From the NCBI GenBank assembly GCA_949299335.1, contig CASGAD010000006.1, forward strand, positions 1 to 32,101: DNA of 32,101 nt, given 5' to 3'. Positions 2,650 to 17,525 of this stretch are shown here, piece by piece; position 1 is the first letter of the stretch, and each line of letters begins with the position of its first letter. Below the pieces are notes generated by a model. That model worked only from the letters and a program-made list of their open reading frames with translations, ran no database searches and was not told where the DNA came from. Origin of the DNA: an uncultured bacterium (GTDB taxonomy: Bacteria > Bacillota_I > Bacilli_A > RFN20 > CAG-826). Position numbers and translations under genes: made by a program.

Positions 2650-3627
2650 ATGAAATTTGTTATTGATATGATGGGTGGAGATAATGGTTTAGAAGCTACT
2701 ATCCCTGCATTAGATGGATTTATTAAAAAAAATAGTGATGTTGAATATTTTTTAGTTGGTGATGAAACAAAATTAGAAAATTTTAAAAATATTGCTAATG
2801 TCCATGTTGTTGCTAGTAAAAGTGTTTTAGCAATGGATGTTGATCCTTTAACCGCATTAAAAGAGAGCGACTCAAGTTTAATGGTCGCCATCAAAACATT
2901 TTTAGAAAATAAATGTGATGCTTTAATTAGTGCTGGTAGTACTGGTGCTTTATTAAGTGCTTCAATTTTTAAAATTAAAAGATTACCAAACATTACTAGA
3001 CCATGTTTAATCACTTCCTTCCCAACTATTAAAACTAATAAAAAATTTGTTGTTTGTGATTTAGGCGCAAACGCTTCAAATACTAAAGAAGAATTGAATC
3101 AATTTGCTATCATGGGTTCATTATATTATTCAATTATTTATGGAGAGAATAATCCTAGAGTATGCTTATTAAATAATGGAACTGAAGAAGAAAAAGGTAA
3201 CGAATTAACTAAAGAAGCTTATACCATATTAAAGAATAATAAATCAATTAATTTTATTGGAAATATTGAGGCTAGAGATCCATTATATGGAAATATTGAT
3301 GTCTTAGTTACAGATGGATTTACTGGAAACATATTCTTGAAATCAGTTGAAGGCACTGCTAAAGCAATGTCTAGTATGATAAAAGAAGCCTTTAAGAGAA
3401 ATTTTTTATCTATGATTGGCTATTTATTCTCTAAAAAAGGAATTGATGGAATTAAGAATAAAATGGATTATAAAAATGTTGGTGGGGCTCTTTTACTTGG
3501 TGTTAACGGAGTTGTTATTAAGGCTCATGGAAGTAGCGATCCACGTTCATTTACTAGCGCTTTAGATAATGCATATAAATTGACCAAGGTTGATATTGTT
3601 AATCGTATTAAAAAGGAACTTGAATAG
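2650..3627 (+). CDS. plsX: Phosphate acyltransferase PlsX
   Basis: 325 residues, a normal PlsX length. The N-terminus FVIDMMGGDNGLEATIPAL is the family signature, followed by the ACP:phosphate acyltransferase fold with SAGSTGALL (about 96-104), DLGANAS (about 138-144) and VTDGFTGNIFLK (about 215-226). PlsX interconverts acyl-ACP and acyl-phosphate at the membrane, and PlsY uses the acyl-phosphate to acylate glycerol-3-phosphate. GGAGAG at 2638-2643 is the ribosome binding site. The B. subtilis neighbours fapR, fabD, fabG and acpP are absent: plsX is followed directly by rnc, sharing the base at 3627. Close to the FakA gene, it suggests a lipid pathway fed by exogenous fatty acids. Confidence 0.95.
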   Translation: MKFVIDMMGGDNGLEATIPALDGFIKKNSDVEYFLVGDETKLENFKNIANVHVVASKSVLAMDVDPLTALKESDSSLMVAIKTFLENKCDALISAGSTGALLSASIFKIKRLPNITRPCLITSFPTIKTNKKFVVCDLGANASNTKEELNQFAIMGSLYYSIIYGENNPRVCLLNNGTEEEKGNELTKEAYTILKNNKSINFIGNIEARDPLYGNIDVLVTDGFTGNIFLKSVEGTAKAMSSMIKEAFKRNFLSMIGYLFSKKGIDGIKNKMDYKNVGGALLLGVNGVVIKAHGSSDPRSFTSALDNAYKLTKVDIVNRIKKELE

Positions 3628-9432: not shown

Positions 9433-9495
9433 GCATTAATGCTACGGACGGTCCACTTTATTTATATATACGAACGTCAAGAGAAAGATTTTTGA
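9433..9495 (+). promoter_or_regulatory. Structured rplS leader (candidate L19 leader)
   Basis: The short leader contains the palindrome GCATTAATGC (9433-9442), then GGACGGTCC, and a GACG that can pair with CGTC at 9475-9478. L19 leaders that control rplS autogenously are known in Firmicutes. The position and folding potential fit, but I cannot align it to that family here. Confidence 0.35.
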
Positions 9496-9509
9496 AGGGA
9501 GGAGCAAAC

Positions 9510-9863
9510 ATGAACACAAATTTAGTTAAAGAAGTTGCTAACACCCAATTAAGAACTGATGTCCCATTCTTCAAAGCTGGTGATACTGTTAAAGTAATGG
9601 TCAGAATTGTTGAAAATGGAAAGACAAGATTACAAGCTTTTGAAGGCGTCGTAATCGCAAGAAGAGGTGCAGGAGTTGCTGAAACATTCATCGTTAGAAA
9701 GATGAGTGGAAGCATTGGAGTTGAAAGAGTATTCCCAATCCATTCACCAAACGTTGCTAGCATCCAAGTCCTTAAAGTTGGTAGAGTTAGAAGAAGTAAG
9801 ATTTTCTATCTTCGTGAAAGAAGTGGAAAAGCTGCTAGAATTAAAGAAGTACTTAAGAAGTAA
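9510..9863 (+). CDS. rplS: 50S ribosomal protein L19
   Basis: 117 residues from the ATG at 9510. The AAGGGAGGAG ribosome binding site at 9496-9505 selects this ATG over an in-frame TTG at 9492 that lies before the site. L19 motifs are [53 protein letters not shown] and the C-terminal [20 protein letters not shown]19 lies at the 30S-50S interface. In B. subtilis it ends the rpsP operon; here that operon is inverted and rplS has its own promoter, leader and terminator. Confidence 0.97.
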
Positions 9864-9867
9864 GATT

Positions 9868-9894
9868 AAAGATCTCGGAAACGGGATCTTTTTT
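9868..9894 (+). terminator. Terminator after rplS
   Basis: AAAGATCTCG (9868-9877) pairs with CGGGATCTTT (9882-9891) around GAAA, followed by a T-run. It starts five bases after the rplS stop. Confidence 0.88.
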
Positions 9895-9911
9895 GTTAAT
9901 ATTAAGGGCTT

Positions 9912-9931
9912 TTTAGTTAATATAAATTGGT
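9912..9931. repeat. Direct repeat, left copy (fragment of the rbgA start)
   Basis: TTTAGTTAATATAAATTGGT matches 10631-10650 at 19 of 20 positions. The right copy lies at codons 7-12 of rbgA and both copies can encode LVNINW. The left copy is followed by TAG. The two copies flank the broken regulator gene. Confidence 0.7.
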
Positions 9932-9975
9932 AGAGTATAAATTTAATAATGATAAACTATTATTAGGAGTTAATT

Positions 9976-10436
9976 ACGAGTTTAGGAAAAAATTTATCAT
10001 TAATTAGAAAGAAAAAAGGTTTTTCTCAAGAAGAACTTGCTTATAAATTAAATGTAAGCCGACAAACAATTTAAAACGGGAAAATGATGAAACGATCCTG
10101 AATATTTATGAAGTTAGTGCCGCCGCAAAATTTTTAAATGTAACAATTGAAGAATTATTAGATTACGAAGAAGAAATTAAAAATATTGAAGAAAGTATTA
10201 ATAAAACTAGCGAAGAAACAATTGCGAAAGTCGATTGGACTAAAGTACGGGGCAAACGCTATCCAATATTACTTGAATATAAAGAAGTAGTAGATCCATT
10301 AAAATATAAAGAAACCTTAGATTATTTAATTAAAGACTTAAAAAATAAGTATCATTACAATAATCGAGATGCTTTTTTGGTTTTAAAAGATATTTTAGCT
10401 AATTTATATAAAGAATATTCTCTTTCGAAAAAATAA
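9976..10436 (+). pseudogene. XRE-family helix-turn-helix regulator, disrupted
   Basis: Conceptual translation from ACG at 9976 gives (T)SLGKNLSLIRKKKGFSQEELAYKLNVSRQTI, a typical N-terminal XRE helix-turn-helix, and then a TAA. Restoring one missing base between 10072 and 10073 returns the family sequence SK(R)ENDETI and a frame that stays open to 10436, with FLNVTIEELLDYEEEI and a C-terminal domain ending YKEYSLSKK. Two further lesions are visible: AGGAG at 9965-9969 precedes ACG where ATG is expected, and the conserved Trp codon TGG reads CGG. Start loss, a one-base deletion and a substitution at a core position together support a dead gene of about 153 codons. It lies between rplS and rbgA, where B. 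subtilis has no such gene. Confidence 0.85.
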
Positions 10437-10473
10437 AACTAGTTTTTATATCTATTAAATAAATAGTAAAATA

Positions 10474-10505
10474 AAATGGTTAATAAATTTATTAATCATT
10501 TTTTT
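10474..10505 (+). terminator. Terminator-like hairpin after the XRE pseudogene
   Basis: AAATGGTTAATAAA (10474-10487) pairs with TTTATTAATCATTT (10488-10501) with one GU pair, and T residues follow. It is AT-rich, so its strength is uncertain. It is probably the original terminator of the regulator gene. The rest of the stretch to 10613 is AT-rich with no gene seen. Confidence 0.6.
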
Positions 10506-10602
10506 ATTTAAGTTAATAAACCTATTGATTTAATTAAAAATCGAAAAACTTATCAAAGTTAAAATGATAAATTTATTAAGGCAAGTTAGACAAAATATAA
10601 GG

Positions 10603-10616
10603 TATATTAAGATATG
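10603..10616 (+). promoter_or_regulatory. Possible -10 box abutting the rbgA start
   Basis: TATATT (10603-10608) is followed by five bases and ATG. This resembles the leaderless layout at rimM and the phospholipase-like gene. AAGG at about 10599-10602 is too far upstream to be a good ribosome binding site, and no -35 box is seen. Confidence 0.3.
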
Positions 10617-11477
10617 GAAAAGCGTGAAAATTTAGTGAATATAAATTGGTTTCCTGGCCATATGAAAAAGGCCTCTATTAAAGTTGAAGAAATTCAAAAA
10701 TTTCTCGACTTTGTAATTTTAATTTTGGATGCTAGAGTACCTTATTCTTCTTATAATACTTTTTTATTCGAATCTATAAAAAATAAGCCTAAGTTATTAT
10801 TATTTACTAAATGCGATTTAGCTGACACTAAAAAAACTGAAGAGCGGATTAAATATTATGAATCTGCAGGGTTTTTATGCTTAAAAGTCGACTATTATGA
10901 TAAAAATAAAAGAAATAAAATCATTGATAAATTAAATACTTTAGTTTCTACTAAACGTGAAAAAAATATCAAAAGAGGTATTAAGCACTCAATATTTAAA
11001 GGAGTAGTTTTAGGGATACCTAATGTTGGTAAATCTACTTTGATTAATGTTTTAGCAGGTAAAAATTTAGCTAAAGCAGCTAATACCCCTGGAGTTACTA
11101 AAAGCGTTAATTGGATGAAAATTAATGATGAACTTTATATTTATGACACTCCTGGAATATTACAACCTCATTTTGAAAATAAAGAAGTTGGAGCTAAGTT
11201 AGCCTTAATTGGCTCAATTAGACAAGATATTTTGCCTTTTGATTATCTTTATAATTTCTTATTAGATTTTTTAAAAAGTAAATATAAAGAAGAGTTTGAT
11301 AAATATTTAAATTTTGATTCTAGCATTTCTAATGATAAGATTATTGAAAATATTGCAAAAACAAGAGTTGCTTTATTAAAGGACGGCAAGTTAAATTTGG
11401 ATGGTGCAATTAGATTAATATTAAATGATTTTAAAGATGCTAAAATTTTAAAAGTAACGATGGATGAAGTATGTTAG
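10614..11477 (+). CDS. rbgA: Ribosome biogenesis GTPase RbgA (YlqF)
   Basis: 287 residues, with the circularly permuted GTPase order G4-G1-G3: TKCD (65-68), P-loop GIPNVGKST (134-142) and DTPG (178-181). The N-terminal INWFPGHMKKA is the RbgA signature. RbgA completes late 50S assembly. The start is uncertain: ATG at 10614 has no clear ribosome binding site, while GTG at 10635 would give an N-terminus (NINWFPGHM) as short as the B. subtilis protein. A fragment of this start is duplicated at 9912-9931. Its end overlaps rnhB by seven bases. Confidence 0.93.
   Translation: MEKRENLVNINWFPGHMKKASIKVEEIQKFLDFVILILDARVPYSSYNTFLFESIKNKPKLLLFTKCDLADTKKTEERIKYYESAGFLCLKVDYYDKNKRNKIIDKLNTLVSTKREKNIKRGIKHSIFKGVVLGIPNVGKSTLINVLAGKNLAKAANTPGVTKSVNWMKINDELYIYDTPGILQPHFENKEVGAKLALIGSIRQDILPFDYLYNFLLDFLKSKYKEEFDKYLNFDSSISNDKIIENIAKTRVALLKDGKLNLDGAIRLILNDFKDAKILKVTMDEVC
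10631..10650. repeat. Direct repeat, right copy (within rbgA)
   Basis: TTTAGTGAATATAAATTGGT, the intact copy at the start of rbgA. It differs from the left copy at 9912-9931 by one base. Confidence 0.7.
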
Positions 11478-13223: not shown

Positions 13224-15320
13224 ATGAAATTAGTTATAGTCGAGTCACCTACAAAAAGTAAAACTATTGGGCAATATTTAGGAGAAGGATATCACGTCGA
13301 AGCTAGTGTCGGTCATATTAGAGATTTAGCTATTAGCGGAGTTGGTGGATTTGGAGTTGATGTTAATAACGACTTTAAACCAACTTATATTGTCGATGCT
13401 GATAAAAAAGATGTTGTTAAAAAACTTTTAGAATTAAAAAGAAATAGCGAAGAAGTTATCCTTGCAACCGACCCTGATAGAGAAGGAGAAGCTATCGCTT
13501 GGCATTTAGCCAATGTTTTAGAATTGCCTATTGAATCGACTAAAAGACTTGAATTTCATGAAATTACACACACAAGCTTAGAAGAAGCTTTAAAGAATCC
13601 TCGTGTCATTGATATGAATTTAGTTCATTCTCAAGAAACTAGAAGAATTATTGATCGTATCATTGGATTTAAGTTATCAACATTATTAAAAAGTAAGATT
13701 CGTAGTAAATCAGCCGGAAGAGTCCAAAGTGTTACTCTTAAAATGATTGTTGAACACGAAAAAGAAATCGCAGATTTTAAGCCAGAGGAATATTGGAATT
13801 TAGAAGCTTCAATTAATAAAAATGATAAATTATATCCTTTAACTTTAATTAAAATTAATGATGAAAATCAAAAGATGTCAAATGAAACTGAAGCAAATAT
13901 TGCTTTAGATTTTACTAAGGAAAATGTAAAAATTAGCGCAATTGACACGTCTTTAAAAAGCATTTCATCAAAAGAACCTTTTAGAACTTCGACTCTTCAA
14001 CAAGAAGTTTCTAGTCGCTTTAGTTTTAAAACTCGTGAAACAACTATTATTGCTCAGCAACTTTATGAAGGTGTTGAAATTAATGGTGAACTCACTGGTT
14101 TAATCACTTATATAAGAACTGATAGTACTAGATTAAGTGAAACTTTTGTCAATAGTGCTAAAAACTATATTATTAATAAGTTTGGTCAAGACTATTGGAA
14201 AGGTCAAAAGAAGACAAAAGATGTTAAATTAGCTCAAGATGCTCACGAAGCAATTAGACCAACGAATTTAGATATTACCCCAAGTATCGCTAAAGAATAT
14301 TTAAACGATCATCAATATAAAGTTTATAAATTAATTTATGAAAGAACTTTAGCTAGTTTAATGCAAGATAAAAAAGAAGAAGTTACGACAATTGAATTTA
14401 AAAATTCCCACCTTACTTTTAATTTAAAAGGTGTGAAAGTTCTTTTTGCGGGATATGATGTTTTTAAATTAGATGAAAATGACACAAACATCTTACCTGA
14501 GTTTAATACGGGCGAAGAATTTGAATTGTTAGAAACAGGCGTTAAGCAAAACTTTACAAAGGCTCCTCCAAGATATACAGAAGGTAAAGTTATCAAATTA
14601 ATGGAAGATAAAGGTATTGGACGTCCATCTACATATTCAGCAACTATTCAAACGTTATTAGCTAGAAAATATGTCACTTTAGTTAAAGGAACTTTAAGAC
14701 CTAGTGAACAAGGAATTTTAACAAGCAATGTATTAAATAAATATTTTCCAGATTTAATTAACACTGAATATACTGCTGATATGGAAACTAATTTGGATAA
14801 AATAAGTGAAGGAACAATCGATGAATTAAAAGTCATTAAAGATTTCTATTATCCATTTGTTGAGCATTATGATGTAGTTAAAGAACAAATGTATAAAGAA
14901 CCATTAAAATTAACTGGTGAAAAATGTCCAATTTGTGGATCTGATTTAGTTTATAGAAACAGCAAACATGGTGAATTTATCGGATGCTCTAATTATCCAA
15001 AATGCACTTACATTAAAAAGGAAGAAAAAGCTGAGCCTGAATCAGTTGGAAGAAATTGCCCAACATGCGGTTCACCTCTTGTTTATAGAAAAAATAAAAA
15101 AGGTCAAAAATTTATCGGATGCTCTAATTATCCAAAATGTCATTATATTGAAAGTTTAGAAGAAGTAACGACTCCTGAAGAAACAAGAATTTGCCCTAAA
15201 TGTGGAGCAAACTTAGTCTTAAGAAGTTCTCGTAGAGGTAAATTCTATGGTTGCTCTAATTATCCAAAATGTGATTATGTAGAGCCATTAAATAAAGTTA
15301 AGAAAGAAAATGAAAATTAA
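13224..15320 (+). CDS. topA: DNA topoisomerase I
   Basis: 698 residues, type IA topoisomerase that relaxes negative supercoils. The Toprim domain starts LVIVESPTKSKTIGQYLG and has ATDPDREGEAIAWH. The active-site Tyr is Y296 in LITYIRTDSTRLS. SKSAGRVQSVTLK and DKGIGRPSTYSATIQTLL are further family motifs. The C-terminus holds three Cys4 zinc-binding repeats of the form CPxCG...GCSNYPKC, starting near 14927, 15057 and 15192. The DNA of the first two repeats shares an identical 30-base stretch. The end overlaps trmFO by 11 bases. The topA-trmFO-xerC order follows B. subtilis. Confidence 0.97.
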   Translation: MKLVIVESPTKSKTIGQYLGEGYHVEASVGHIRDLAISGVGGFGVDVNNDFKPTYIVDADKKDVVKKLLELKRNSEEVILATDPDREGEAIAWHLANVLELPIESTKRLEFHEITHTSLEEALKNPRVIDMNLVHSQETRRIIDRIIGFKLSTLLKSKIRSKSAGRVQSVTLKMIVEHEKEIADFKPEEYWNLEASINKNDKLYPLTLIKINDENQKMSNETEANIALDFTKENVKISAIDTSLKSISSKEPFRTSTLQQEVSSRFSFKTRETTIIAQQLYEGVEINGELTGLITYIRTDSTRLSETFVNSAKNYIINKFGQDYWKGQKKTKDVKLAQDAHEAIRPTNLDITPSIAKEYLNDHQYKVYKLIYERTLASLMQDKKEEVTTIEFKNSHLTFNLKGVKVLFAGYDVFKLDENDTNILPEFNTGEEFELLETGVKQNFTKAPPRYTEGKVIKLMEDKGIGRPSTYSATIQTLLARKYVTLVKGTLRPSEQGILTSNVLNKYFPDLINTEYTADMETNLDKISEGTIDELKVIKDFYYPFVEHYDVVKEQMYKEPLKLTGEKCPICGSDLVYRNSKHGEFIGCSNYPKCTYIKKEEKAEPESVGRNCPTCGSPLVYRKNKKGQKFIGCSNYPKCHYIESLEEVTTPEETRICPKCGANLVLRSSRRGKFYGCSNYPKCDYVEPLNKVKKENEN
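14975..15271 (+). repeat. Repeated zinc-finger coding units in topA
   Basis: The 30 bases at 14975-15004 recur exactly at 15110-15139, and their last 20 bases (TGCTCTAATTATCCAAAATG) recur at 15252-15271. All encode GCSNYPKC of the three Cys4 repeats. Identity at synonymous positions suggests recent duplication or gene conversion. Confidence 0.75.
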
Positions 15321-16580: not shown

Positions 16581-17525
16581 ATGGATAAAAATGTAAAAGA
16601 TTTTTTGGATTATTTAAAACATGATTTAAATTATAGTGATAACACTATTAAGTCATATGCTTTTGATATCGAATTATTTTTAAAATTTCTCTTTAAAAAA
16701 AGCATAAAAATCGAAGAAGTTGATAAAAATACAATAAGGGAGTTTGTTTCAAACCGTTCTAAACACAAAACATATAGAGGAAGTTACGAAACTAATCGTA
16801 CGATTTCTAGAAGAATCTCATCTAATAAAAAATACTTTTCTTATTTAGTTAAAATTGGTGAACTTCAAAATAATCCATTTTTATTTATTGATAGTATCAA
16901 AGTAAAAAAGAAAAATGTTGAAGTTCTTTATGAAAATCAAGTTAAAAAATTACTAGAGGCTAATGAGGCTAGGACAGATTTTTTTAAAGAAAGAGATGAG
17001 GCAATTCTTTTATTAATGTTTTCTAGTGGCTTAAGATGTTCTGAATTAGTTAACTTAAAAATTAATAATATTGACTTATCTAGTTGTGTCTTAAGAGTAT
17101 ATGGAAAGGGTAAAAAAGAGAGGCTTGTCCCTTTTTCTAATAAAAGTACACTAGCAATAATTAAGTATGCAAAAAATACCAGGTTGATAATATTAGAGAA
17201 AAACAATGCAAATTCAACATATTTATTTTTAAATAAATATGGGCAGCCTATTACCCCTCGTGGATTAGAATATATTTTTAAAAATATAATAAAGAAAACT
17301 AAGTTGAATTTAGGTATAAATTTGCATCCTCATATCTTACGTCATACTTATGCAACTAAACTATTAGATAACGGAGCTGATATAAGAACCATTCAAGAAT
17401 TATTAGGGCATGAGTCGATAAATACAACTCAAATTTATACCCATGTTTCGAAAGAAAAAATAAAAAAGCAGTATGATATGTTTTTCCCTAAAGATCTTGA
17501 AAATAAAAACGAGGATATTAAGTAA
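16581..17525 (+). CDS. xerC: Tyrosine recombinase XerC-like
   Basis: 314 residues. The N-terminal SAM-like core-binding domain (about 1-105) begins FLDYLKHDLNYSDNTIKSYAFDI. The catalytic domain has R152 in SSGLRCSELVNL, a lysine in YGKGKKER (176-179), H251 and R254 in LHPHILRHTYATKLL, H277 in ELLGHESINTTQIYTH and nucleophile Y286, so the active site is complete. Xer enzymes resolve chromosome dimers at dif. The location after trmFO matches codV/xerC of B. subtilis and argues for a housekeeping recombinase rather than an integrase. clpQ-clpY-codY, which follow in B. subtilis, are absent. Confidence 0.9.
   Translation: MDKNVKDFLDYLKHDLNYSDNTIKSYAFDIELFLKFLFKKSIKIEEVDKNTIREFVSNRSKHKTYRGSYETNRTISRRISSNKKYFSYLVKIGELQNNPFLFIDSIKVKKKNVEVLYENQVKKLLEANEARTDFFKERDEAILLLMFSSGLRCSELVNLKINNIDLSSCVLRVYGKGKKERLVPFSNKSTLAIIKYAKNTRLIILEKNNANSTYLFLNKYGQPITPRGLEYIFKNIIKKTKLNLGINLHPHILRHTYATKLLDNGADIRTIQELLGHESINTTQIYTHVSKEKIKKQYDMFFPKDLENKNEDIK

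Follow-up and report, generated by a model that had tools for sequence, protein, structure and literature searches.

The window, by which we mean the whole 32,101-nucleotide stretch of DNA analysed here, carries the remnant of an XRE-family regulator between two intact housekeeping genes, rplS and rbgA. A conserved leader precedes the remnant, and two near-identical 20-base sequences flank it. The features of the locus are:

9510..9863, + strand: rplS (ribosomal protein L19), the left neighbour, with its ATG at 9510 inside an ORF at 9492-9863; the G014 protein is 99% identical
9868..9891, + strand: intrinsic terminator of rplS
9891..10437, + strand: stretch common to the window and locus L067 of genome G137 (blastn, 84.7% over 548 columns), comprising leader and XRE gene and taken as the acquired unit; its left edge is uncertain by about 7 bases, the match in another search beginning at 9898
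9902..9963, + strand: conserved leader of the XRE unit, 56/62 identical to L067; synonymous sites differ at 48%
9912..9931, + strand: left 20-mer, inside the XRE leader, 19/20 identical to L067 2811-2830
9976..10436, + strand: XRE-family regulator pseudogene, start codon lost and frameshift near 10070; the L067 homologue is intact (153 aa)
10473..10506, + strand: terminator-like AT-rich hairpin with a T-run, downstream of the XRE remnant (fold -9.2 kcal/mol, z -5.0)
10614..11477, + strand: rbgA (ribosome biogenesis GTPase), intact
10631..10650, + strand: right 20-mer, the rbgA codons Leu-Val-Asn-Ile-Asn-Trp

The XRE remnant is real. A 30-residue piece of it matched HTH_3 (PF01381) with 27.7 bits against a cut-off of 23, its reading frame is broken by the frameshift, and the codon aligned to the start codon of the intact gene is ACG in the window. 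A sequence-only reading of this DNA had placed an XRE pseudogene here, and these lesions bear it out. The same reading had put a terminator behind the gene; the hairpin at 10473-10506 is indeed terminator-like, but it is absent from the listing of a G+C-based terminator scan. The space between the two 20-mers contains no entire ORF of at least 50 aa that has a start codon. The remnant shares its N-terminal HTH_3, above cut-off, with the single-gene XRE/HTH_3 regulators of Bacillota, which consist of an HTH and an unnamed C-terminal domain. It differs from them in that the window copy is broken, and no partner gene was seen between rplS and rbgA. Its C-terminal part, searched with a query sequence that had one residue wrong, matched no Pfam family.

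The 20-base direct repeat

The left copy reads TTTAGTTAATATAAATTGGT and the right copy TTTAGTGAATATAAATTGGT, with 19 of the 20 positions identical. The bases adjoining the two 20-mers differ on either side, and the match ends at once in both directions. The left copy translates as LVNINW followed by TAG, and the right copy encodes the same six residues in frame within RbgA (ORF 10614-11477). Both the repeat with its single differing base and the likeness of the left copy to the rbgA codons had been claimed from the letters alone, and the repeat is confirmed. We then scanned the whole 1.42 Mb genome with the 20-mer pattern, allowing up to three mismatches. The scan returned five matches, namely the two copies and three others at three mismatches each, and a reversed control pattern also returned five. 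Within two mismatches the genome held no match besides the two copies, and a 13-base core, AATATAAATTGGT, occurred three times, at both copies and at one other place. The 20-mer is thus not frequent in the genome.

How unusual the pair is depends on the scale at which it is viewed. Only 1 of 100 shuffles of the window gave two or more pattern matches (up to three mismatches), and 5 of 3009 sampled window 20-mers had a match of at least 19/20 within 1 kb. Of 60 dinucleotide shuffles, 5 contained a direct pair of 20 bases or more, no further apart than 2 kb and with one mismatch at the most (mean 0.1). Five such pairs are present in the real window, above every one of the 60 shuffles. Three of them lie in ORF 13224-15320, which we take to be topoisomerase I with repeated zinc-finger-like motifs; another joins 2312-2331 and 2906-2925, again with one mismatch, and the last is the 9912/10631 pair. 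This pair is unlikely at one given spot and mildly unusual over a scan of the whole window.

The right copy lies in a part of RbgA where certain residues are favoured. Among the 28 RbgA starts listed (27 relatives and the window, three of 31 loci having been dropped from the motif search), 22 fit N-[IV]-[HNQ]-W (Asn-Ile/Val-His/Asn/Gln-Trp). The six that do not fit include G014, the closest relative, which matches the right copy at 10 of 20 bases. Since no more than 7 to 13 of the 20 bases agree in the 27 relatives listed, coding constraint accounts for part of the likeness and not for all of it. The RbgA of the window begins with Met-Glu, as it does in at least ten congeners, so the right-hand rbgA start looks native. 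By blast, the window begins to match the G014 rbgA only at 10641.

The rplS-rbgA junction in congeners

We compared the junction with that of 25 congeners, 24 of which had a readable locus; G020 has only an rbgA fragment. The gaps of L021, L024 and L028, the loci missing from the motif search of rbgA starts, were read from a separate locus comparison. The gap was gene-free in 23 of the 24 (G014 and 22 further congeners), and neither an XRE gene nor an integrase gene was found in any of the 24. In G014, the nearest relative (RplS 99% and RbgA 80% identical), a short gap separates the rplS terminator from the rbgA start. The sole congener with a gene in the gap is G001, where a 453-aa ATPase-like ORF (L100 3076-4437, - strand) is presumably, from its look, an AAA_14/DUF4143 protein; its presence indicates that the rplS-rbgA gap gained genes more than once in the genus. 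An intact regulator at this junction did not turn up in any relative.

When the C-terminal part of the XRE protein was searched against the 25 congeners, nothing matched at E<=0.01. With the whole remnant as a DNA query, 21 of the 25 gave matches, all of them short and partial, the best covering about 100 bases of the HTH part, and we read these as probable matches to other XRE genes and to chance sequence. The comparisons support the view that the XRE block is an insertion. At four of the junctions (L003, L004, L017 and L018) we also observed a TATAAT box that overlaps or follows the T-run of the rplS terminator, with the rbgA start about 8-20 bases further on, a placement that would mean a leaderless or very-short-leader rbgA mRNA.

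A homologue of the XRE unit at another locus

A scan of genome contigs identified an intact relative of the XRE gene upstream of an Hsp20-like gene at L067 (CASEYK010000023.1), a locus of G137, which belongs to the same family as the genome of the window and to another genus. Window positions 9891-10437 align to L067 2790-3337, and the alignment passes through the left 20-mer, with matching bases flanking both of its ends. The 20 bases thus stand beside another XRE gene, at 19 of 20 identical, and the right copy matches the L067 sequence at 18 of 20; in G137 the start of rbgA (L084) agrees with the right copy at only 12 of 20. Since the 20-mer of L067 lies in a stretch shared on both its sides, at a locus other than rbgA, the meaning of the match changes: a sequence that precedes the XRE gene at such a locus is poorly explained as a duplicate of the rbgA start made by an insertion. 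By this alignment, the left copy belongs to the XRE unit. The sequence-only reading had proposed an insertion that duplicated the rbgA start, or else a recombination scar; the insertion stands, with 23 of 24 junctions empty, and the duplication and the scar find no support, given the 20-mer in the L067 leader. Each of the two checks suggested with that reading, for empty junctions in relatives and for the 20 bases beside other XRE genes, gave a positive answer, and neither of the observations it had named as refuting was made.

The leader is 90% identical between the window and L067, against 52% at synonymous sites, a comparison of one pair, as the leader occurs in a single other genome. The leader and the gene seem to have been constrained jointly, and the leader (9902..9963) is most likely a promoter or self-regulatory operator of the XRE unit. 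A promoter consensus scan showed no excess (9 sites against 10.9 in shuffles) and supports no particular site, and the leader folds no better than its shuffles (z 0.02). Four more distant homologues (G048, G036, G264 and G092), with start codons placed from the tblastn alignment only, have leaders in which we saw no 20-mer by eye. Between the window and L067 the gene has a dS of 0.76 and a dN/dS of 0.10 (143 codons, the frameshift stretch left out), indicating that it was under selection for most of the divergence and died late. L067 also contains, from the XRE leader outwards, a stop-free antisense frame of 56 codons (2671-2841, - strand) that looks protein-like. As a candidate remnant gene it was set aside, having no Pfam or NCBIfam match and no relative in 223 other genomes of the family or in plasmids.

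Origin of the repeat and spread of the XRE unit

We consider it very likely that the XRE unit was acquired horizontally and then decayed, and that the left 20-mer is its own leader and the right 20-mer native rbgA, the two being alike by chance. A single-gene unit, with about 80 bases of leader and a gene of about 150 codons, would have entered the rplS-rbgA gap by horizontal transfer, and the gene would later have lost its start codon and its frame. The left 20-mer would be a piece of the conserved leader of this unit and the right 20-mer native coding sequence, and their likeness would have arisen by chance, A+T-rich sequence and the residues that RbgA favours before Trp making it easier. 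The resemblance of the leader to the rbgA start is thus most probably a coincidence. Against this reading, a 19/20 match between a leader and the neighbouring gene is improbable for that pair alone, the next best of the relatives listed reaching 13/20. If the reading is right, one homologue in a different neighbourhood can resolve a suggestive flanking repeat, the repeat being the acquired gene's own leader. Otherwise the case would be unremarkable: a single-gene regulator gained and then lost to decay between two housekeeping genes.

A scar at an attachment site, which we regard as unlikely, would have arisen if an ICE or IME of the Tn5253 kind had entered the 5' end of rbgA and duplicated a core near the Trp codon, the bulk of the element then being deleted and the XRE gene left as its end gene. 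The start of rbgA is a known target of such elements. Tn5253 inserts into rbgA on the downstream side of an 11-bp core, and 17-84 nt of its target are duplicated in the process; in E. faecalis this target comprises the first 17 nt of the CDS (PMC8571831). Some other streptococcal ICEs also target the 5' end of rbgA and are flanked by direct repeats (PMC4701971). The window resembles these in its position at rbgA and in its short direct repeat. The repeat (20 nt) starts inside the CDS, leaves out the rbgA start codon and ends at TGGT (...AATTGGT), in the same part of the gene as the Tn5253 core, if that core lies at the Trp codon as we infer. Both copies are in the same frame, and the L067 leader has AAGGG and then TTG in frame with VNINW. 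The late onset of homology to the G014 rbgA also fits a scar, as does the match of the 20-mer to the rbgA of the window, which is better than chance usually yields.

Several observations argue against such a scar. Integration should leave the upstream part of native rbgA, with its start codon, on the left copy; however, the left copy has no in-frame ATG, GTG or TTG after the terminator, and it is the right copy that has the Met-Glu start, the wrong polarity for an element of the Tn5253 type. The sequence just before the left copy also occurs in G137, at a locus other than rbgA. The empty hsp20 junction of G136 lacks TGGT on both strands, and the unit in G137 has no repeat of length 14 or more with copies on both its sides. 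Unlike the known ICEs, the window has no integrase or conjugation genes between the repeats, and the shared stretch contains only the XRE remnant. A tyrosine-recombinase-like ORF does lie 6 kb downstream (16581-17525), but G014 has a counterpart at the same place and lacks the block, so we take this ORF as a resident gene. The search for elements linked to rbgA covered the loci compared here: in the 24 congeners read, the gap is gene-free but for the ATPase-like ORF of G001, and none has an integrase gene in it. In a variant that we rate as a shade less probable again, the XRE unit would be the end of a small Bacillota integrative element whose rbgA-mimicking core travels along with it and still lies in the left flank at hsp20 in G137.

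That the 20-mer is an operator of the XRE regulator, with the rbgA copy a second, selected operator placing rbgA under XRE control, seems very improbable. The conserved leader, and a near-identical copy within the 5' end of the following coding sequence, are what such an arrangement would offer; however, the sequence partly encodes residues common in RbgA, the relatives listed fall to 7 to 13 of 20, and the regulator is dead. Least credible is a transposon that carried the XRE gene into the rbgA start and made a target-site duplication: two near-identical 20-mers do flank the block, but the left one lies within the unit that G137 also has, 14-21 bases from its left edge, the right edge of the unit is the XRE stop codon, about 190 bases short of the right copy, and the block has no transposase-sized ORF. 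L067 largely contradicts this account.

The spread of the unit also speaks for horizontal acquisition. Between genera (G000 versus G137) the XRE proteins are 84% identical over 111 C-terminal residues, compared with 59% for RplS and 34% for RbgA, which argues for horizontal transfer. Leader and gene together were found in 2 of 279 genomes of the order, where in five more the match sets in no earlier than query position 71, which lies in the region of the start codon. The same holds for 2 of 395 genomes in the class sample, with a third that matches only from position 75, and for 2 of 392 in the phylum sample, with two more that match only the coding part; the three samples overlap. The genus of G137 was represented by one further genome, G136, in which no XRE gene separates hsp20 from the neighbour upstream of it, and a local alignment of the left flank of L067 to this junction gave a weak gapped match only. 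Two separate gains from a common pool would fit these observations best.

The shared unit, its absence from the congeners, the likeness of the leaders and the lesions are observed, and the direction and the vehicle of the transfer are inferred. The intact XRE protein matched 54 phage records, each at less than 60% identity and in no case across 80% of its length, and the 15 rows listed cover the HTH part only. Of the 548 plasmid records that it matched, three span 80% or more of the query, with 31-32% identity. Viral contigs yielded three weak loci and no exact copy of a 20-base leader core. Within the order, the C-terminal part of the XRE protein matches eight further genomes at E<=1e-8. One distant homologue, at L043 ~2898-3334 (- strand) in G036, from another family of the order, also looks broken, with two TAA codons inside.
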